A DNA stretch of 49,888 nucleotides, from the IMG/VR virus record IMGVR_UViG_3300022752_000109, positions 1-49,888 of that record. One strand, 5' to 3'. Positions 37,893 through 45,414 of this stretch are shown here, in pieces. How positions within the stretch are numbered: position 1 is the first letter of the stretch; the number at the start of each line of letters is the position of its first letter. This stretch comes from a virus. The notes under the pieces are model-generated. The model did not search any database, had not been told where the DNA came from, and was given only the letters and a program-made list of their open reading frames with translations. Made by a program: the position numbers and the translations under genes.

Positions 37893-38207
37893 TCAGGCAA
37901 GTCTCATGCCTGAGAAGAAAGGAATCGGTGCGCCATCGTATTGCACAAACCACTGAAAGTTTTTCGCAAAGATACGCTCACCTTCCATACCAAATGCAGA
38001 AAGAATTGCATTTAGGCGGGACTTTGTGGTCTTTGTTTGATAACCACCATCAAACAATTCCATCCAGGTTTCACCAATGCGAGCAATCAGATGACCATGT
38101 AGATAGACATCAGAAACATTGGTACAAGAGATAACCTCAGTGTTGGCAAGTTTGAAGTCCTGATTGTTTTGAATTGCGGCGATCATTTGAGATTCGATCT
38201 TACGCAT
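37893..38207 (-). CDS. Conserved hypothetical protein (104 aa)
   Basis: MRKIESQMIAAIQNNQDFKL, then NTEVISCTNVSDVYLHGHLIARIGETWMELFDGGYQTKTT, SRLNAILSAFGMEGERIFAKNFQWFVQYDG. The pattern 'VYLHGxxIA...TKTTxSRLNAILSAF' recurs in small proteins of cyanobacteria and their phages (from memory), function unknown; the basic 'TKTTKSRLNAIL' could bind nucleic acid. Cassette A provides a promoter 31 nt upstream. Confidence 0.75.
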   Translation of the reverse strand: MRKIESQMIAAIQNNQDFKLANTEVISCTNVSDVYLHGHLIARIGETWMELFDGGYQTKTTKSRLNAILSAFGMEGERIFAKNFQWFVQYDGAPIPFFSGMRLA

Positions 38208-38214
38208 GGAAGAG

Positions 38215-38296
38215 GTCCGTTTCGTTTGGTATGCTTTAGTATTGCACGAATCCGGGGGATTCGCAAGGGGGGTTGTGCCACTTTCTCAACTGTCAC
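38215..38296 (-). promoter_or_regulatory. Promoter/stem-loop cassette, copy A
   Basis: Minus strand: an imperfect GTGACA...TGGCAC hairpin (38275-38296), then TTGCGA (38261-38266), 17 nt, extended -10 TGC-AATACT (38238-38243), then the leader AAAGCATACCAAACGAAACG. Drives the 104-aa gene. Confidence 0.65.
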
Positions 38297-38460
38297 TCGT
38301 TGGTAGGGTGATTTACAATTTGATCTTCAATTTGATTCGCAAGTTCTTCCATAAACTCACGATCTTCGCCATCTTCAAACTGTGCATTGTTTCGCACAAT
38401 TCGCATCAGAAAGTCAATTTGTTCGTCAGTGAAATGATACTCTTTGAGTGTGTCAGTCAT
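38293..38460 (-). CDS. Small acidic helical protein (55 aa)
   Basis: ATG at 38458-38460: MTDTLKEYHFTDEQIDFLMR, IVRNNAQFEDGEDREFMEEL, ANQIEDQIVNHPTNE. It is strongly acidic. The pattern 'YxFTDEQIDFLMRIVRN' resembles a small helical domain in other cyanophage proteins. Start and stop are tightly placed: the next gene upstream ends 3 nt away and the cassette hairpin overlaps the stop. Function unknown. Confidence 0.7.
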   Translation of the reverse strand: MTDTLKEYHFTDEQIDFLMRIVRNNAQFEDGEDREFMEELANQIEDQIVNHPTNE

Positions 38461-38462
38461 AA

Positions 38463-38642
38463 TCAGAAACGAATGATGGGATGATTAACATCGAGGACAT
38501 CACATTCCTCAGTCGCAAACACAAACTCTACAGATGCTTGAAATACCTCATCGGGTTCATCTTCAGAGCAGATAGCAACATCTTGATTGAGTTGCTCTTC
38601 GTTGAGTTGTTGAAGTTGTTGCAGAAGTTCTTTGTAAGTCAT
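38463..38642 (-). CDS. Small hypothetical protein (59 aa)
   Basis: Start chosen at ATG 38642, overlapping the stop of the 88-aa gene (TGATG): MTYKELLQQLQQLNEEQLNQ, then DVAICSEDEPDEVFQASVEF and VLDVNHPIIRF. The N-terminal helix plus acidic middle and the end 'DVLDxNHPxI' are a recurrent cyanophage small-protein pattern. Function unknown. A longer reading from 38657 would run into the upstream gene. Confidence 0.7.
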   Translation of the reverse strand: MTYKELLQQLQQLNEEQLNQDVAICSEDEPDEVFQASVEFVFATEECDVLDVNHPIIRF

Positions 38643-38908
38643 CAGACTGCACCCCACATAGGATTGGCAATTTGCGGTAAAGTGTGAAATTGAGTAACTT
38701 CATAACCCATACCAATTCTCTCCTCACATTCTTGCTCAAATTGCTTTTTTGTGATCACTTTTTTGCTCATCGTTTCAGTGCCTTGAAAGGAAAGAATCTT
38801 GAGCATATAATTCGGAGAAACATCAGCATCAGCAGAAACTTTGATGGGATAGTAATCAACAACCATCGAAGGTTTGCCGTCAATTTGTGAAAAAGTGGAG
38901 AGTTGCAT
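38642..38908 (-). CDS. Hypothetical protein (88 aa)
   Basis: Start chosen at ATG 38908 because the frame upstream lies in promoter cassette B: MQLSTFSQIDGKPSMVVDYY, IKVSADADVSPNYMLKILSF, then a basic/acidic KKQFEQECEERIGMGYEVTQ. No recognised domain. Its product is probably small and soluble. It is the first gene behind cassette B; the 59-aa gene follows by overlap. Confidence 0.65.
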   Translation of the reverse strand: MQLSTFSQIDGKPSMVVDYYPIKVSADADVSPNYMLKILSFQGTETMSKKVITKKQFEQECEERIGMGYEVTQFHTLPQIANPMWGAV

Positions 38909-38910
38909 CT

Positions 38911-38975
38911 CGTTTCGTTTGGTATGCTTTAGTATTGCACGAATCCGGGGGAAAGTCAACCCCCCAGACCATCAG
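38911..38975 (-). promoter_or_regulatory. Promoter cassette, copy B
   Basis: Minus strand: TTGACT (38954-38959), 17 nt, extended -10 TGC-AATACT (38931-38936), then the same leader as copy A. A GGGGG...CCCCC hairpin flanks the -35. The usual GTGCCA/TGGCAC stem is missing. Confidence 0.65.
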
Positions 38976-38981
38976 CGTTGC

Positions 38982-39188
38982 TTATGGGTCACATAAAAGA
39001 AGTTTATGGCAACGATCTGCTTCAGATAGTGTATCATCATCAAGGCGATCCCATTCTACCCAATCATAGGCAGAATAAGTCGTTTCGTATGATCCATCAG
39101 ACAGCAGCGGAGCATACATCAAGACTTGCTGATTGTCTGGATCAAGTGTATAGGTGCAGTGATTTTTTTGTGAGATGAGAAATACCAT
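38982..39188 (-). CDS. Small hypothetical protein (68 aa)
   Basis: MVFLISQKNHCTYTLDPDNQ, LMYAPLLSDGSYETTYSAYD, WVEWDRLDDDTLSEADRCHK. A small beta-type start with an acidic tail; no family recognised. The ATG overlaps the preceding stop (TGATG). Both are driven from cassette C. Confidence 0.65.
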   Translation of the reverse strand: MVFLISQKNHCTYTLDPDNQQVLMYAPLLSDGSYETTYSAYDWVEWDRLDDDTLSEADRCHKLLLCDP

Positions 39189-39412
39189 CAGAAGTGTGCC
39201 TCAGAGTAATCGACTTTGGCAGAGTATTTTGCAAGGTTATCATAACATTTCTTTTTCATGTTCTCATCGTTTTCGTAATCTTTCAAAAACTCGAAGCAGT
39301 ATTTAATACGTTCCTCAGGATGAGAAAGAATACGTTGACGCTCATTGTATGCTGCATTGTATGCAAACATCTCACGATCTTCAATGCTGACGATGTGAAA
39401 CTTGCGATCCAT
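39188..39412 (-). CDS. Small hypothetical protein (74 aa)
   Basis: MDRKFHIVSIEDREMFAYNA, AYNERQRILSHPEERIKYCF, EFLKDYENDENMKKKCYDNL. It is helical and highly charged. An AAAGGGAA ribosome site lies before the ATG. It is the first gene after cassette C, and its stop overlaps the next start. Function unknown. Confidence 0.65.
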   Translation of the reverse strand: MDRKFHIVSIEDREMFAYNAAYNERQRILSHPEERIKYCFEFLKDYENDENMKKKCYDNLAKYSAKVDYSEAHF

Positions 39413-39414
39413 TG

Positions 39415-39496
39415 ATTCCCTTTGTTTGGTATGCTTTAGTATTGCACGGATTCCAGCAGACTACAAGGGGTCTTGTGCCAGTTTGTTGACTGGCAC
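39415..39496 (-). promoter_or_regulatory. Promoter/stem-loop cassette, copy C
   Basis: Minus strand: perfect 8-bp hairpin GTGCCAGT/ACTGGCAC (39475-39496), TTGTAG (39461-39466), 17 nt, TGC-AATACT (39438-39443), leader AAAGCATACCAAAC. Nearly identical to copy D over the promoter. Confidence 0.75.
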
Positions 39497-39511
39497 AGGG
39501 ATTGTTTAGGT

Positions 39512-39652
39512 TCAGAAAGATGCTGTAACGTGTACAACTTTCGCGGTAGGATTTCGTGCCAATGCTGTTTCTCTGGCGTCAGACATGCTGTTGGCGTAGA
39601 CTTCTTCGGTGAAAACTTTGCCCGCAACGTAGAGTTGAACTTTGTATTTCAT
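39512..39652 (-). CDS. Small hypothetical protein (46 aa)
   Basis: ATG at 39650-39652: MKYKVQLYVAGKVFTEEVYA, NSMSDARETALARNPTAKVV, HVTASF. It is a small beta-alpha-beta-like peptide with the pattern 'YVAGKxFxExVxAxxxxDARxxALARNPxAKV', a recurring cyanophage small protein (from memory). It follows the 84-aa gene stop by 2 nt. Function unknown. Confidence 0.7.
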   Translation of the reverse strand: MKYKVQLYVAGKVFTEEVYANSMSDARETALARNPTAKVVHVTASF

Positions 39653-39654
39653 GA

Positions 39655-39909
39655 TTACCAAGTACCTCGTTGAATGTGGATTTTTCGGATTTCAGTATAA
39701 ATGAAGCGACGAAGTTTAGAGTCTGTGGTGTTATCAAAAGCATAATGTAGACGATTCAGGTATTCATCTTGATCAATGCCAATGTTACCATTCCCACCAA
39801 GGTCATTGAGTGAAGAACCTGCCTTTGATTTCGGTCGTCCAAAGTTACCTGTCACATTGCCAGATGTTCTCAATTTGGGACGAATCTTTGAGAGATTGGA
39901 GTAAGTCAT
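39655..39909 (-). CDS. Small basic hypothetical protein (84 aa)
   Basis: MTYSNLSKIRPKLRTSGNVT with a Gly/Asn/Ser-rich middle (SKAGSSLNDLGGNGNIGIDQ), then a helical end (YLNRLHYAFDNTTDSKLRRF). The basic N-terminus could contact nucleic acid. It overlaps the preceding gene by 4 nt. No family recognised. Confidence 0.6.
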   Translation of the reverse strand: MTYSNLSKIRPKLRTSGNVTGNFGRPKSKAGSSLNDLGGNGNIGIDQDEYLNRLHYAFDNTTDSKLRRFIYTEIRKIHIQRGTW

Positions 39910-40142
39910 CGTGCAATAATGTCCAGAGACTCCAGCAGCATCATTGCAAGTTCCATACGATTGTCTTCGTCAACCACAGGAATGTTTGCTTCTACAAACT
40001 CACTTGCAAGTTGATGCAAAAGTTCAGTCATTCGCACGTCATCATAAACAAACGCTGCAAAATCACTCTTGAAACCATTACACAGAAGTCGCAAGGACTT
40101 TTTGACAGTCAGGTCTTTAATTTCTTGTTGATAGTCAGTCAT
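39906..40142 (-). CDS. Small helical protein (78 aa)
   Basis: From ATG 40142: MTDYQQEIKDLTVKKSLRLL, CNGFKSDFAAFVYDDVRMTE, LLHQLASEFVEANIPVVDED. An ATG two codons earlier (40148) overlaps the preceding stop and is an alternative start. The pattern 'FKSDFAAFVYDDxRMxELLHQLAxEFVEANIPVVDExNRxELA' is a distinctive small-protein family in cyanomyoviruses (from memory); function unknown. The sequence suggests an all-helical fold. Confidence 0.7.
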   Translation of the reverse strand: MTDYQQEIKDLTVKKSLRLLCNGFKSDFAAFVYDDVRMTELLHQLASEFVEANIPVVDEDNRMELAMMLLESLDIIAR

Positions 40143-40144
40143 AA

Positions 40145-40573
40145 TCATTTTGCGTAGAGATAACCACCAGACCAGTCAGCATTTTCAAGCAACCATTCAC
40201 GATCAGCAATCAATCGCAGATCATAACGTACACCTTTTGCGGGAGACTTCCACGATGCAGATTTGTACACTTCACCAGTTTGTTTATCAATGAAGCAGTG
40301 AACAGAGCGAGAAAACCCACTGGTAATCATAATGACTTTATGATACTTTTTGCCAGTTTCAATCTCATAATCAACATCAGTTTTACCATTCTTAAGTTCA
40401 TCAATACAGCGCAGATGATACTCTACACTCTCACCACGCTCTGCGAAACGATGATGTCCACGAATAGCATACTGACGATAGTTGTCTTTGAGTGCTTCAA
40501 TCAGTGCCAGAGCATGATGATACACATTCTCTGCAATAGATTGTTGTGCTTGAGATTGAAGAGTCGCAGTCAT
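40145..40573 (-). CDS. Hypothetical protein, conserved-looking (142 aa)
   Basis: MTATLQSQAQQSIAENVYHH, then GKKYHKVIMITSGFSRSVHC, FIDKQTGEVYKSASWKSPAK, GVRYDLRLIADREWLLENAD. 'SVHCFIDKxTGEVYKxASWKxPAKGVRYxL' is a recognisable pattern of a protein family in cyanobacteria and their phages, with no established function. It is preceded by cassette D and followed by the 78-aa gene with ATGA-type overlap. Confidence 0.75.
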   Translation of the reverse strand: MTATLQSQAQQSIAENVYHHALALIEALKDNYRQYAIRGHHRFAERGESVEYHLRCIDELKNGKTDVDYEIETGKKYHKVIMITSGFSRSVHCFIDKQTGEVYKSASWKSPAKGVRYDLRLIADREWLLENADWSGGYLYAK

Positions 40574-40575
40574 TG

Positions 40576-40654
40576 CGTTTCGTTTGGTATGCTTTAGTAT
40601 TGCACGGATTCCAGCAGACTACAAGAGGTTTTGTGTCAGTTTCTGGACTGGCAC
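40576..40654 (-). promoter_or_regulatory. Promoter/stem-loop cassette, copy D
   Basis: Minus strand: hairpin GTGCCAGT/ACTGACAC with one G-T pair (40633-40654), TTGTAG (40619-40624), 17 nt, TGC-AATACT (40596-40601), leader AAAGCATACCAAACGAAACG as in A and B. Confidence 0.75.
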
Positions 40655-40658
40655 ATGG

Positions 40659-41573
40659 TCACCACTTTTTGGGTAAAGTGAAGTTGTAGAATGAAAATCT
40701 TTGCCGATTCACCAACTTAAATGCGCCATACTTGTTAGACATCACGAAACCCTCATGATTGACTGCTTCGTAGTCAACACCAAGATCAATGATTGTATCA
40801 ACCTCTTCAACGGATTTCAGACCTTCCATGATTATTTCCTTTGCTTGAGTGATGAGATTAAACAGCAGCAAAAGATTTCCAGAGATGCAATCAACAGGAC
40901 GATTATCACGAATACATTTGTTAATTAAGATTTGCAGTTTTGCTACTTCTTTCGCATCAGGGTACTTAACAAAATTGCTAACCACACTTGCAAGACCAAG
41001 AATGTAATCAACTCTACGACGACGGGAGGTAATGATTGCATCAGTATTTACGAAATAAGTTGCCATGAAATTGTGCTTGAGATACTCTGGCACACCAAAA
41101 GATGCTTCCAAAGTCTTCATCGTCTTGCCAACATAACTGGTGTGACATGCAAATACGATGGAAGAGTTAATCACACTGCAATCCGGATCAGTAAAGGTGT
41201 AAGTGATAGTATTTGGGGTGAATTGATTGGTGCCACCAAATCCGATAAAATCACCCTGATAAACACCATCAAGGCGAGGCAATGTCTCAAGGCAAGTGTG
41301 AAGAATCGCAGCAACTTTCGGATTGTTGCCGTGATTCTTCTCGATGTCGGCGTGAGTATAATTGATTTTGACTTTTACTTTGTTGAATATACTTTTCGTG
41401 CCAACAAAAAACTTACCATTCTCGGGATTTGTCCCAAATACGATTGCAGGTGCCCCATCCCATTTCACCGTGACAGTAGAATTGCGATCACGAAGGAAAT
41501 TGATAACATTCTGCACAGATTGCTTGCCCAGCAATACAGAATCTTCGGGATGTTCGAGGTGTGTGTTTTTCAT
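40659..41573 (-). CDS. Ligase-like covalent nucleotidyltransferase
   Basis: A 304-residue protein. N-terminal 'MKNTHLEHPEDSVL' matches a cyanophage family without established role. Motifs of the RNA/DNA ligase and capping-enzyme superfamily are visible in order: motif I V-K37-W-D-G-A-P (nucleotidyl lysine), a YQGDFIG stretch (105-111) in motif III position, motif IV E274-G-F-V (with M-S-N-K281), and motif V K286-L-V. This predicts AMP transfer via Lys37. Possible roles are repair of RNA or DNA nicks, or countering host tRNA cleavage as T4 Rnl1 does; function is inferred. The ATG overlaps the predicted start of transcription of cassette E, so the mRNA may be leaderless. Confidence 0.75.
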   Translation of the reverse strand: MKNTHLEHPEDSVLLGKQSVQNVINFLRDRNSTVTVKWDGAPAIVFGTNPENGKFFVGTKSIFNKVKVKINYTHADIEKNHGNNPKVAAILHTCLETLPRLDGVYQGDFIGFGGTNQFTPNTITYTFTDPDCSVINSSIVFACHTSYVGKTMKTLEASFGVPEYLKHNFMATYFVNTDAIITSRRRRVDYILGLASVVSNFVKYPDAKEVAKLQILINKCIRDNRPVDCISGNLLLLFNLITQAKEIIMEGLKSVEEVDTIIDLGVDYEAVNHEGFVMSNKYGAFKLVNRQRFSFYNFTLPKKW

Positions 41574-41608
41574 GCTTTTAGTATGGCACAGAATCTAGCA
41601 AAAGTCAA
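41574..41608 (-). promoter_or_regulatory. Promoter cassette, copy E (no stem-loop)
   Basis: Minus strand: TTGACT, 17 nt, extended -10 TGC-CATACT (41580-41585), then AAAAGC before the ATG at 41573. Transcription would begin at or beside the A of the start codon. The rest of the gap up to 41740 holds no convincing gene. Confidence 0.6.
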
Positions 41609-41740
41609 GACCCAAAGCATCAACATCTTTTATGAGTCAAATATGTTTTCATAAGTTATACTATGGAAAAAATCGTTGACTTGTCTGCGGTGGATGACCT
41701 ATAACACCTGTCAGGTAGAATTGCCAAAAAATCCGGTTTT

Positions 41741-41763
41741 GACCCCAGTGGTAGACTGGGGTC
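41741..41763. other. Hairpin downstream of the helicase gene
   Basis: Perfect 9-bp stem GACCCCAGT (41741-41749) with ACTGGGGTC (41755-41763), 5-nt loop. It lies just past the helicase stop. On the minus strand it is followed by AAAACCGGATTTTTT, which may make it a transcription terminator although the T-run is 9 nt away. Confidence 0.55.
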
Positions 41764-41773
41764 TCAGTGAGAC

Positions 41774-42958
41774 TCATCTACGAACCACGCTGATAGCAGG
41801 TTCGCCCTTCTCAAAGATAGTATCAACAACTGCCTGCACAGAGCGAGCAGTGGAGATGCCAACTTTATCATAGACAGGCACACAAACCAGACCAAACTTC
41901 TTGGATTCATCGCCCAGACGAATGACCCGACCGATAGTCTGTGAGATGCCAATGTAGTCCATGTTACGCATAAACAAGACTGCTTCCAATCCTGACACGT
42001 TGATGCCCTCAGATAGGATGCTATGATGTATCACAACAAACCGCTTGCTGCTATCCTTACCCCACGCATTGAGAGTATCAAAGAACTTCTCACGATCGAC
42101 CTTCTCGCCGTCAATCACCGCGCCAGTCTTGGATGTAATCATCATCCAAGAATAACCACGCTGTTGAAGTTGCAAGCAGAAGTCAGATTCTGATACCAAA
42201 CCAACAATTTGTTTGGTAGTGCGAGCACAAATTAGGATCTTTTTGATGCCCTGATCATCAATGGTCTCCAGCAGATTCTCAGCATCACGCTCAAAAACTA
42301 CCTGACGATCCTTGACCATAGGCAACTGCTTGACCACAACTTTCGGGGGTAGAATGTAACCACCTTTCACCAATTCGGGTGCAGAAACCTTGCAAATCAC
42401 CTGACCATAAATCTCAGAAATATTCATTCCTGGTTTACCCACAGCAAGCGAATGTTTCGGAGTTGCAGTGAAGAAATAGCAACGCTTTGCGTTAGCAGAA
42501 AAGTACTCAGTTGCAGGAAAAAAGTTACGTTTGACGCTGTTATGTGCCTCATCAAAGTAAATCGTATCCACATCAATCTCTGCCTTTTGCAGGCGATTCA
42601 GAGAGTTGTAAGTAGTGAAGATTAGTTGATGACGCTCAGCAGCAAGACATGCATCAGTGTGAACTGCAATCTGATCAGGATTGGTGGTAGATTCGTGATG
42701 TGTTTCGCCACTATGAACGTGCAAAACTTCAGCGTTAGTGATAAACTCTAGAAACTCGCTAGAAAGTTGCTCAGCAAGCAAAATACGCGGTGCAACAACA
42801 ACAATCGTCTGCGGAGTTTCAGACTCAAACTGTCGCAGAGCATCCACAATCATCTTCAGCGTTTTACCACCGCCAGTAGGAACAATGACTTGACCTTTGC
42901 AATACTTTTGCATTGCATCAATTCCACGTTGCTGAGATGGGCGAAGAGTTGGAATCAT
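41774..42958 (-). CDS. SF2 DEAD-like helicase
   Basis: A 394-residue protein from ATG 42958; a longer TTG-started frame to 42991 is less likely. Motifs in order: Q-like LRPSQQRGIDAM, Walker A PTGGGKT (27-33), Ia APRILLAEQL, DEAH (136-139), TAT (164-166), SEGINV (316-321) and QTIGRVIR (340-347). These are the motifs of a type III-restriction/UvsW-like branch. In T4, UvsW unwinds R-loops and branched DNA to switch replication mode. It may be the UvsW counterpart, but it is shorter (T4 UvsW is about 503) and I cannot exclude a separate helicase. It is cotranscribed with a 199-aa protein and small genes from cassette F. Confidence 0.88.
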   Translation of the reverse strand: MIPTLRPSQQRGIDAMQKYCKGQVIVPTGGGKTLKMIVDALRQFESETPQTIVVVAPRILLAEQLSSEFLEFITNAEVLHVHSGETHHESTTNPDQIAVHTDACLAAERHQLIFTTYNSLNRLQKAEIDVDTIYFDEAHNSVKRNFFPATEYFSANAKRCYFFTATPKHSLAVGKPGMNISEIYGQVICKVSAPELVKGGYILPPKVVVKQLPMVKDRQVVFERDAENLLETIDDQGIKKILICARTTKQIVGLVSESDFCLQLQQRGYSWMMITSKTGAVIDGEKVDREKFFDTLNAWGKDSSKRFVVIHHSILSEGINVSGLEAVLFMRNMDYIGISQTIGRVIRLGDESKKFGLVCVPVYDKVGISTARSVQAVVDTIFEKGEPAISVVRR

Positions 42959-42990
42959 GTGTTTTGTGAAGACCTGTTCATAATAGACCA

Positions 42991-43016
42991 ACCACCTGCC
43001 GATTAAAGCAGGTGGT
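42991..43016. other. Hairpin between the 199-aa gene and the helicase
   Basis: Perfect 9-bp stem ACCACCTGC (42991-42999) with GCAGGTGGT (43008-43016), 8-nt loop. It is at the end of the 199-aa gene. There is no U-run, so it may be an RNA stability or attenuator element. Confidence 0.5.
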
Positions 43017-43036
43017 GGACAGTTTGCAAATTGACT

Positions 43037-43636
43037 TCAGTTGGAGCGAGTTTCGTATACTGTATGCAACCACTTTTGTTTGGCAACAACATTACCATAG
43101 ATGACATGTACGGCAGCAGCGTCATCCTTGTGAACAGAAAGTTGAGAGAATCCGTTGTTGTTTTTGCCAGTCTTTGTAACGCCATCAGAGAATCCAGAAT
43201 CAGGATTCTTAAACTTGGAGCAGTCAACAAGAAAGGCAGAAATAGCGGGGAAATAGTTACCAACATTCTGCACCTTGACACAAAACACCAGAGGCACCTT
43301 TACCTTGCTGTGATTGTTGCCAGTGGCGAAAGATGATGGAGTTGATGTCAGCGTAAGCTTGTCTTCAATCTTTTGAAAAAAGATGACATTATCGTATCCA
43401 TTTGTCTCTTCTCGCACATACTCTGGAGTCTCTCTACTAGCAACAACTTCCAGAGATTTGGCAAAAACAGGAGCAATAAGTTTGCTCTTCTCCGCAGTAT
43501 CATTCGTCATTTCGTCGATGTTATCGTATCCAAAAAGATCAGGCATGTGACGATTCAAACGAGTAGTCGTTTCATCAAGAACTTCAGGCAGAATCTTCTT
43601 GAGGAGATTGATCGTATTTTGAAGATTGTCAGTCAT
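43037..43636 (-). CDS. Hypothetical protein upstream of the helicase (199 aa)
   Basis: MTDNLQNTINLLKKILPEVL with helical N-terminal half, then beta-rich C-terminal half (VKVPLVFCVKVQNVGNYFPA, ISAFLVDCSKFKNPDSGFSD, SVHKDDAAAVHVIYGNVVAK). It has no membrane segments. No domain is recognised. Context: it is immediately upstream of the SF2 helicase and just downstream of a 43-aa membrane protein by overlap (ATGA), so the three may work together. The function is unknown, and an anti-restriction or DNA-processing role is only a guess. Confidence 0.7.
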   Translation of the reverse strand: MTDNLQNTINLLKKILPEVLDETTTRLNRHMPDLFGYDNIDEMTNDTAEKSKLIAPVFAKSLEVVASRETPEYVREETNGYDNVIFFQKIEDKLTLTSTPSSFATGNNHSKVKVPLVFCVKVQNVGNYFPAISAFLVDCSKFKNPDSGFSDGVTKTGKNNNGFSQLSVHKDDAAAVHVIYGNVVAKQKWLHTVYETRSN

Positions 43637-43764
43637 TTGCGAAGAGGTGAGTTGTAGTAGCGACGAAAAACAGTAACGAGAATAATGAGAGTGGAAATTA
43701 CACCAATGAAACCGAGATAAGTTACGGAATCACCGACGAAGTTAAGAGTTTCAGGCGTAGTCAT
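43633..43764 (-). CDS. Small membrane protein (43 aa)
   Basis: ATG at 43762-43764: MTTPETLNFVGDSVTYLGFI, GVISTLIILVTVFRRYYNSP, ends RK. One hydrophobic segment (about residues 13-32) flanked by basic C-terminal residues predicts a single-span protein with C-end inside. Start overlaps the 43-aa acidic gene by 14 nt, stop overlaps the 199-aa gene (ATGA). Confidence 0.65.
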   Translation of the reverse strand: MTTPETLNFVGDSVTYLGFIGVISTLIILVTVFRRYYNSPLRK

Positions 43765-43882
43765 AATTAGCAGCAAGGTAACCATCAAAATCGAAATCTT
43801 TTTCATCCAGAAGTTCTGGGATGTCGAAGATCTCTCCAGCAGAATCTTGAATCTCAGACCAGAAATCGGTGTCGAAGTCCAT
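43751..43882 (-). CDS. Small acidic protein (43 aa)
   Basis: Start at ATG 43882 (a longer frame reaches into cassette F): MDFDTDFWSEIQDSAGEIFD, IPELLDEKDFDFDGYLAANYDYA. Extremely acidic, with no K-rich region. Acidic mini-proteins of this sort occur as DNA mimics or inhibitors in phages, but no specific match is seen. It is first behind cassette F. Confidence 0.6.
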   Translation of the reverse strand: MDFDTDFWSEIQDSAGEIFDIPELLDEKDFDFDGYLAANYDYA

Positions 43883-43884
43883 AG

Positions 43885-43969
43885 TTGTGTGTTTTTTTGA
43901 CTCTTTTAGTATTGCATGGATTCCAGCAAACCACAAGGGGGGTGTGCCAGTTTTTTCACTGGCACACCC
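43885..43969 (-). promoter_or_regulatory. Promoter/stem-loop cassette, copy F
   Basis: Minus strand: 10-bp (12-bp with flanks) stem GTGTGCCAGT/ACTGGCACAC (43942-43967), TTGTGG (43931-43936), 17 nt, TGC-AATACT (43908-43913), leader AAAAGAGTCAAAAAAACAC. Second sub-type with copy G. Confidence 0.75.
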
Positions 43970-43975
43970 TGCGAT

Positions 43976-44209
43976 TCATGTTAAAAATCTTTCAACAATA
44001 CGAGATTCTTCATTATCTACAAGGGCAAATCTTTGTGCTTTGATGACATTTGCACGAAGATTGCCATAATATTCTGAATAAGATTCGTTGTCATCTAACA
44101 CAATCAAATCAAAACATTCATCATCATTTTCTGCGATAACATTCCACACTCCTCCATATTCAGATTGCGGAAACTTGATGAAGTGATCTACGACGTAAAA
44201 GTGTTTCAT
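43976..44209 (-). CDS. Hypothetical protein (77 aa)
   Basis: MKHFYVVDHFIKFPQSEYGG, VWNVIAENDDECFDLIVLDD, YGNLRANVIKAQRFALVDNE. The pattern 'VWNVIAENDDECFDLI' is that of a small mixed alpha/beta protein seen in cyanomyoviruses; function unknown. A strong promoter lies upstream at 44233-44261, giving a transcription unit separate from the cassettes. Confidence 0.7.
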   Translation of the reverse strand: MKHFYVVDHFIKFPQSEYGGVWNVIAENDDECFDLIVLDDNESYSEYYGNLRANVIKAQRFALVDNEESRIVERFLT

Positions 44210-44232
44210 TAAACCTTGAAAATTACCTCTTA

Positions 44233-44261
44233 ATTATAGTGGGATTTGTTTTTTTCGTCAA
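44233..44261 (-). promoter_or_regulatory. Sigma70-like promoter
   Basis: Minus strand TTGACG (44256-44261), 17-nt spacer, TATAAT (44233-44238); only one base from consensus. Leads into the 77-aa gene. Confidence 0.7.
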
Positions 44262-44283
44262 GAATGTGTGGGATAAAATACTG

Positions 44284-44409
44284 TCATACAAACTCTGCAA
44301 GATAGTAGTCTACAGTGATTTCAAGTTCTGCTGCTTTTCGCTCTACATCCTCATCATGTTGGCAGAACAAATCAAGAGTAGACTCAGACAGACAATTTTC
44401 TTCATTCAT
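44284..44409 (-). CDS. Small acidic protein (41 aa)
   Basis: ATG at 44407-44409: MNEENCLSESTLDLFCQHDE, DVERKAAELEITVDYYLAEF, V. It is helical and acidic, with two cysteines. Its start overlaps the end of the 43-aa membrane protein gene. Function unknown. Confidence 0.6.
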   Translation of the reverse strand: MNEENCLSESTLDLFCQHDEDVERKAAELEITVDYYLAEFV

Positions 44410-44533
44410 GGTGTTGATTTGCTTGGTGATAATACGCTTCAAACATTTTTGCATCTCGCTGGATTAGAAAGACATTCCAACCAATTATGGTAGCAATACC
44501 AATTAATCCAGCGATAACATACTTACGACTCAT
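44402..44533 (-). CDS. Small membrane protein (43 aa)
   Basis: ATG at 44531-44533: MSRKYVIAGLIGIATIIGWN, VFLIQRDAKMFEAYYHQANQ, HHE. One hydrophobic segment (about 5-24) after a short basic N-terminus predicts an inner-membrane anchor with a His-rich tail. The start overlaps the preceding stop (ATGA). Confidence 0.65.
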   Translation of the reverse strand: MSRKYVIAGLIGIATIIGWNVFLIQRDAKMFEAYYHQANQHHE

Positions 44534-44937
44534 ACTGCAAGTGCTCCAGAGGGGATTTCCTGACTTTCAAGATAAGTTTCGTGCCAGTCACAGGTATCAT
44601 AGCACAACCAACCTTCTTTTTGAGTATAAACGTATGCAAACTCTTCGGCATCTTGAGTCAAATACTCTTGCAGGTTGGCATCAAGACGAGGAGGGCAATA
44701 TTCACCACGTTGAGAGTAGTAAAGTGGACCTTGTGCAACAGTTTCATTGTTAAAACCAGCATTAGTCCAAGCAGAACTCATATCACCGCCATCAATCAGT
44801 TCGGCGGCAAGTTCTTTGCTATTATAGTGAGTTTTAAGAATACGACCCAACCACTCAGGATAACCATCCCAGTGATGATAGGCAGACAAAATGCTGCCAT
44901 CTTTCAATTCGATACCAATGCGAGAGCGGGTTGCCAT
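44530..44937 (-). CDS. Conserved hypothetical protein (135 aa)
   Basis: Start at ATG 44937 (upstream codons fall in cassette G): MATRSRIGIELKDGSILSAY, HHWDGYPEWLGRILKTHYNS, then GLLCYD/EGWLCYDTCDWHETYL. 'MATRSRIGIExxDGSIxSxYHHWDGYPExLG' is a well-defined family found in bacteria, archaea and phages without established function. It has several Trp/Tyr/His that suggest a ligand-binding site. First gene behind cassette G. Confidence 0.82.
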   Translation of the reverse strand: MATRSRIGIELKDGSILSAYHHWDGYPEWLGRILKTHYNSKELAAELIDGGDMSSAWTNAGFNNETVAQGPLYYSQRGEYCPPRLDANLQEYLTQDAEEFAYVYTQKEGWLCYDTCDWHETYLESQEIPSGALAV

Positions 44938-44939
44938 TC

Positions 44940-45021
44940 GTCGTGTTTCTTTGACTCTTTTAGTATTGCACGAAATCCAGCAGACCACAAGGGGTCTTGT
45001 GCCACTTCCTCAATTGGCACA
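44940..45021 (-). promoter_or_regulatory. Promoter/stem-loop cassette, copy G
   Basis: Minus strand: hairpin TGTGCCA/TGGCACA (44998-45021), TTGTGG (44985-44990), 17 nt, TGC-AATACT (44962-44967), leader AAAAGAGTCAAAGAAACAC as in copy F. Confidence 0.7.
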
Positions 45022-45414
45022 CCCTTTTGGTTTTCTCTTTTTTTTCACTGATTTTACTTCTTGAATGTCTTTTTCATAGACCAGATAATCACTCTTTTTA
45101 AGTTTACTTCGAGTCACATACTTTTCCATGTTGATCTTAGAATCGAAGAAACATATTTTCTTATCCTTGAGATCTTTTCCTTCCATATGTTCCAATCTAA
45201 TTGGAAACATCGAATGAGGAAACTCTGGATTAGGATTTGCCTTCATTTTGAGTGCCATTGGTTTCACCATCTTCATTCCCAGTATAACGTATTTTCCTCG
45301 GACTGTAAAGTCCAGGCCAAGTATTCCTAATGATTTCTGCAAGTTTATGGGGAGTTTCGGATTTAATATTTCACAGATTGAAAGAATCCATTCTTTTCTA
45401 CGATTGCAGAGCAC
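45010..45414 (-). CDS. Hypothetical protein, start uncertain
   Basis: An open frame of up to 134 codons from a GTG at 45414 that overlaps the phosphoesterase gene by 52 nt; no in-frame ATG occurs until about 45276. A start near the end of the phosphoesterase gene is possible. Content: LGILGLDFTVRGKYVILGMK and HSMFPIRLEHMEGKDLKDKK, then a very basic C-terminus (KSVKKKRKPK). The basic tail suggests nucleic-acid or membrane contact. Hairpin and cassette G follow the stop. Confidence 0.5.
   Translation of the reverse strand: MLCNRRKEWILSICEILNPKLPINLQKSLGILGLDFTVRGKYVILGMKMVKPMALKMKANPNPEFPHSMFPIRLEHMEGKDLKDKKICFFDSKINMEKYVTRSKLKKSDYLVYEKDIQEVKSVKKKRKPKGCAN

Follow-up and report, generated by a model that had tools for sequence, protein, structure and literature searches.

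Composite promoter cassettes with an upstream inverted repeat in front of accessory genes of T4-like cyanophages

Near-identical promoter segments recur between small genes in one part of a phage contig, most of them preceded by an inverted repeat (IR) that might be read either as an RNA stem or as a DNA site. This raises the question of what the repeat does for the adjoining promoter, and whether the segments take part in the exchange of the genes that they separate. The reading favored here, with a probability of about 0.72, is that they constitute a composite promoter cassette, present in several copies and placed before accessory genes, that the IR would serve as a DNA site, and that recombination would occur between the copies.

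Cassettes of the window and their distribution

The window, which is the whole stretch of DNA analyzed and corresponds to an IMG/VR record in full (49,888 bp), is derived from a T4-like cyanophage. It carries T4-like head, neck, and baseplate genes (matches to phrog_460, 211, 227, 438, and 219), neck, sheath-stabilizer, and baseplate families being matched, and the closest named DNA is that of Synechococcus and Prochlorococcus phages. Structural genes predominate left of ~34 kb; from 37.8 to 45 kb, small genes, the function of which is mostly not known, form a block on the minus strand. In the first-pass annotation a seven-copy promoter family was proposed for this block, and seven sigma70-type promoters are indeed found on the minus strand between 38.2 and 45.0 kb, the number of accessory genes of the window with a sigma70-like promoter directly upstream being likewise seven. 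The promoters follow the pattern TTG-N17-TGnAATACT, with CATACT in one copy. The spacer of 17 nt given previously is retained, and the placement of TGC behind it is not; counted to AATACT, the spacer includes the TGC. Near-identity of the blocks is borne out by pairwise comparison, with 42 of 42 nt in common between the copies at 38.2 and 38.9 kb, and 44 of 45 and 40 of 45 nt in common between the cores at 39.4 and 40.6 kb and at 43.9 and 45.0 kb, respectively. The sequence GTGCCA...TGGCAC, reported upstream of most copies, is present in five of the seven as part of an imperfect 24-bp IR, TGTGMCASTT-N4-AASTGKCACA. The copies at 38939 and 41588 possess no IR and a different upstream module. As had been stated, there are two types of leaders, the exception being the 41588 copy with 6 nt before the ATG. 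In the following list, class A denotes cassettes with and class B cassettes without the IR; the first coordinate of each extended -10 element is the start of its TGn, and the gene named is the one that the cassette would drive.

38238..38297, minus strand: cassette 1, class A; IR 38274-38297; -35 box TTGCGA 38266-38261; TGC-AATACT 38246-38238; leader AAAGCATACCAAACGAAACG; gene 37893-38207 (phrog_554)
38931..38988, minus strand: cassette 2, class B, no IR; upstream module CCCATAAGCAACGCTGATG 38988-38970; -35 box TTGACT 38959-38954; TGC-AATACT 38939-38931; possible hairpin GGGGG-GTTGACTTT-CCCCC with the -35 box in the loop and no U-run; gene 38642-38908 (phrog_500)
39438..39497, minus strand: cassette 3, class A; IR 39474-39497 with perfect arms; -35 box TTGTAG 39466-39461; TGC-AATACT 39446-39438; gene 39188-39412 (phrog_15469)
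40596..40655, minus strand: cassette 4, class A; IR 40632-40655; -35 box TTGTAG 40624-40619; TGC-AATACT 40604-40596; gene 40145-40573 (phrog_818)
41580..41637, minus strand: cassette 5, class B, no IR; upstream sequence GACTCATAAAAGATGTTGATG ~41637-41618; -35 box TTGACT 41608-41603; TGC-CATACT 41588-41580; 6 nt to the ATG of gene 40659-41573 (phrog_455)
43908..43966, minus strand: cassette 6, class A; IR 43943-43966 with matched arms; -35 box TTGTGG 43936-43931; TGC-AATACT 43916-43908; leader AAAAGAGTCAAA; gene 43751-43882
44962..45021, minus strand: cassette 7, class A; IR 44998-45021, within which the upstream ORF 45010-45414 has its stop codon; -35 box TTGTGG 44990-44985; TGC-AATACT 44970-44962; leader AAAAGAGTCAAAG; gene 44530-44937 (phrog_1987)

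Often, the upstream gene ends inside the IR, with TGA or TAG as its stop codon within TGTGACAG or the central 4 nt (examples are 45010 and 38293 of the window and 42240 and 45084 of ACG-2014f). The phrog_455 gene (MKNTHLEHPED...) starts 6 nt past the -10 element in most contigs examined, behind cassettes of both classes, and its mRNA is therefore probably leaderless. A helicase gene of the window (41774-42991) is without a cassette in front; its relatives in other cyanophages have one.

A plain promoter scan of this region yielded 32 matches versus 24.7 ± 5.3 in shuffled sequences, which is not above chance, and a generic scan for promoters plus terminators was rejected as a signal for not exceeding the shuffles. 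The above-chance signal is the repeated composite, not the promoter alone.

The family had been considered lineage-specific. This is contradicted by the occurrence of the same architecture in many IMG/VR contigs and in six T4-like cyanophage isolates, namely, S-CRM01 from freshwater and ACG-2014f, S-M1, Syn9, S-PM2, and P-SSM2 from marine habitats. Exact searches with cores or composites retrieved ~80 IMG/VR contigs, and a search of IMG/VR with the IR only retrieved at least 120 stretches. A matrix of the IR was built from 61 training sequences of freshwater contigs, including the window copies and leaving out the isolates; it detects five sites in the 49.9-kb window, none of them in the structural-gene part, and none in the reversed window. 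Because the window copies are among the training sequences, the independent test is that on the six isolates, where 108 sites were found (ACG-2014f, 35; S-CRM01, 22; S-PM2, 19; P-SSM2, 17; Syn9, 8; S-M1, 7) versus none in the reversed genomes. Those of ACG-2014f are on a single strand, mostly at 27–57 kb, and Syn9 contains several such cassettes at 44–52 kb. A blast search with one ACG-2014f-type cassette returned 1,022 places in 49 records, all of them Synechococcus phages. At up to two mismatches, no IR was found in T4, RB49, KVP40, or the pelagiphage HTVC008M. A scan for exact matches in one-per-species cellular genomes gave 21 stretches, none with a convincing promoter link except perhaps the marine MAG contig L285, which is possibly viral; the idea of a host regulon was abandoned on these grounds, and, judged by exact matches, the IR is unlikely to be a host site.

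Related contigs without the IR contain a module of the class B type, which is roughly CTCATAAGCAACACTGATS followed after ~10 nt by TTGACTT. With a matrix from 19 such sites outside the window, no place in the window scored higher than the copy at 38939 (19.5, versus 15.3 for the reversed control), the match of which is displaced by one base from the fixed place; the copy at 41588 obtained a moderate score of 12.3, exactly at the fixed place. The class A copy at 38246 and the class B copy at 38939 are identical in 41 of 45 core positions and in 6 of 45 upstream positions, and look as if distinct upstream modules had been joined onto one core. Several IR sites of S-CRM01, among them 127441, 134497, and 149101, are followed by another conserved core and leader, TTATGCTAGCTAAGTGGTC; some of these lie close to tRNA genes.

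Nature of the inverted repeat

The IR is located at a fixed distance from the promoter. In the window and the six isolates, the best match to TGnTATAAT lies 25–28 nt past the IR in 86 of 113 cases (~5% expected for a range of that width), and among the IR-only matches listed in IMG/VR a -10 element is found at this distance in 107 of 178 places, palindromic sites being counted on both strands. This spacing could partly be inherited from one ancestral cassette. The IR is further associated with a poorer -35 box: TTGAC is present in 15 of the 108 promoters with IR and TTG versus 27 of 41 without IR (Fisher test, 1.5e-9), a comparison that is imperfectly matched, since the sites without IR were chosen by their TTG and -10 elements.

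According to the classical view of promoter early stem-loop (PeSL) cassettes, GTGCCA...TGGCAC would be an RNA stem-loop at which transcription of the upstream gene ends, and a strong early promoter would act independently behind it. In ACG-2014f as well as in the window, the element is indeed found at, or overlapping, the upstream stop codon; the arms are perfect in some copies, and a real terminator follows just past the element in a subset of the relatives. An RNA stem, however, would need matched changes in both arms. Over the 108 unique IRs of the isolates, which were found by the matrix and not picked by a fixed GCACA, pairing exceeds the shuffles at no position; position 5 is A.G in 60 and position 8 is G.G or C.C in 50 of them. 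For individual phages, pairing at position 8 is below chance in ACG-2014f (8 versus 14.2, P=0.011), and a weak excess is seen at position 5 in S-CRM01 (16 versus 11.5, P=0.041). The changes in the two arms not being matched, the IR is not conserved as a stem, and the earlier description as a stem-loop cannot be upheld in this sense; the RNA hairpin was discarded as an explanation of the element. In two of the five IRs of the window, the arms match completely, and such a hairpin could form there. Nor does the element function as a terminator in the window as judged by sequence, where none of the seven cassettes contains a terminator or a U-run between the upstream element and the -10 box. Together with the fixed distance to the -10 element, which a terminator does not need, this makes the classical PeSL interpretation unlikely.

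Predicted terminators are found in relatives, though at another place. In the pooled set, 37 of 200 cassettes with IR (2.1 expected) and 7 of 41 without IR (0.8 expected) contain, between upstream element and -10 box, a G/C-rich hairpin that has a U-run, which corresponds to an enrichment over shuffles of ~17-fold and ~9-fold, respectively. The loop holds the -35 position in 41 of these 44 cases, and the annotated S-CRM01 terminators 146122 and 150748 fall between the IR and the -10 element. Contig L131 reads GTCCCC-TTGACA-GGGGAC-TTTTTTT and then TGCAATACT, and contig L012 reads GGGGGG-TTGACG-CCCCCC-TTTTTTT and then TGCCATACT. In these two as well as in L061, L081, L086, ACG-2014f (31967), and others, the loop is the -35 box and the U-run abuts the extended -10 element; termination and initiation would thus occur within a common 30 bp.

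The fixed distance to the -10 element and the weaker -35 box in the presence of the IR suggest that the IR is a DNA control site. We infer a putative IR-binding protein that would help the polymerase at promoters with a weak -35 box; possible candidates are an activator supplied by the host, a protein carried in the virion, or one made early by the phage. A DNA site might also be the operator of a host or phage repressor, by which the genes would be turned off later in infection. Inverted half-sites at a fixed place would be in line with this, and any dimer that binds DNA would be compatible with the data on spacing and covariation, but the IR is centered near -54, upstream of the polymerase, a position more usual for activators than for repressors. 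Considering that the link to a weak -35 box also favors activation, a repressor is given a low probability.

Gene exchange at the cassettes

The cassettes had been thought to organize the accessory genes as mobile units, and a comparison of gene content in relatives had been proposed. This part of the proposal stands for marine relatives, not the close kin of the window, in which genes are gained, lost, and replaced at cassettes. Nine ACG-2014f isolates were compared, and differences, hand-picked from one alignment, were counted per event. In four of the nine listed differences, both ends are located in cassettes, the exact repeats there being 3, 36, 31, and 0 nt long; random segments of the same lengths ended in cassettes on both sides in 1.6% of trials. 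Gene gains, losses, and replacements in ACG-2014f are thus bounded by cassettes more often than expected by chance. C7 and C12 are without a 3.5-kb block, the two ends of which lie in cassettes; US37 has a 258-bp gene unit absent and another unit of 300 bp present, both bounded by cassettes, the exact repeats being those of 36 and 31 nt; between the same two cassettes, US24 and US36 contain other sequence. In three further differences, a cassette is present at one end only. In US3, a segment of 227 bp flanked by 25-nt repeats is lost, one repeat being within a cassette leader. One more of the nine differences is an exact 95-bp tandem cassette copy, which C90 (KJ019059) carries at ~38213–38395 and which is absent in the other isolates compared. 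The segment of 36.3–39.8 kb between two cassettes, deleted in C7 and C12 and replaced in US24 and US36, is a local hot spot of gene exchange.

Genes common to the window and other phages are found there in other orders and with other cassette classes or leaders. Leaders within a genome have a similarity of 0.661; when leaders are shuffled among orthologues, the value is 0.503 ± 0.023 (0 of 1000). Between orthologous genes of different phages, it is 0.544 versus a background of 0.449. By sequence similarity, the type of leader is tied more closely to the genome than to the gene.

Host polymerase is able to transcribe from promoters of the extended -10 type with no additional factor. It is nevertheless very unlikely that the cassettes are ordinary host-like sigma70 promoters, alike by descent, with IRs and cores devoid of a role and gene changes that are merely intergenic, for, while host polymerase would suffice and orthologues keep somewhat similar leaders, the isolates contain IR sites in numbers not seen in their reversed genomes, orthologous genes swap upstream modules and leaders, and the 36- and 31-nt repeats at indel ends as well as one tandem copy lie inside cassettes.

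Under the favored reading of a composite cassette, a class A unit would consist, from 5' to 3', of the stop codon that ends the upstream gene, the 24-bp IR centered near -54, a G/C-rich stretch with the weak -35 box, and the extended -10 element, which would be read, presumably early in infection, by host sigma70-type RNA polymerase from predicted starts at the first-transcribed stretch CATACCAAA or AAGAGTCAAAG, followed by the ATG. The IR would be bound by a protein aiding the polymerase at the weak -35 box; in some relatives, the G/C-rich stretch would be an intrinsic terminator with the -35 box in its loop. Class B would combine another upstream module with a good -35 box (TTGAC). Owing to the likeness of the copies, homologous recombination would delete, insert, duplicate, or replace the intervening gene units, and it would keep the copies alike within one genome. 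More tentatively, and with the odds somewhat against it, T4-like cyanophages may share a dedicated activator for which the IR near -54 would mark an accessory-gene regulon, the -35 zone being freed for the terminator of the upstream gene, so that each cassette would be a movable stop-and-start unit.

Relation to known phage promoters

PeSL cassettes of T4-type phages were reportedly described by Arbiol 2010 and Comeau 2014. The present cassettes are a cyanophage variant of these with an extra upstream element. Common to both are units of promoter and hairpin between accessory genes and the shuffling of genes by recombination. The cyanophage cassettes differ in the addition of an upstream IR that is not conserved as a stem, in a terminator that, if present, surrounds the -35 box, and in the conservation of the first-transcribed stretch. 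The combination of such cassettes with -35-threaded terminators and evidence of recombination was not found in the literature examined. A novel element controlling early genes of Syn9 and conserved in T4-like cyanophages is said to have been found by Doron et al. 2016, and it may be part of these cassettes. If it equals the IR or the leader, that part is already known, and the novelty of either is uncertain.

The MotA-dependent middle promoters of T4 combine an extended -10 element and a weak -35 box with a site for an extra protein, and the cassettes may work in a similar way. A MotA box near -30 was not found in the cassettes, the conserved upstream element of which lies at about -66 to -42. 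Marine T4-like cyanophages are without T4-like middle promoters and without motA and/or asiA (PMC5780444). With the early promoters of T4, the cassettes have in common the many copies before novel or accessory genes and the sigma70-type -10 element (PMC1524935). T4 early promoters, however, have a GTTTAC -35 box and an A-rich stretch at -40 to -44 (PMC1524935), whereas the cassettes have TTGYG or no -35 box, the IR at about -66 to -42, and an extended -10 element.

The cassettes provide a defined sequence rule for many promoters of abundant cyanophages, together with a route by which hypervariable blocks of cyanophage genes are rearranged. They also indicate a missing regulator, for which the known DNA site could serve as bait. 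For S-PM2, the density of PeSLs was judged too low to explain gene acquisition (PMC4503421); this verdict of sparsity is to be set against up to 35 IR sites per genome and gene changes that end there.
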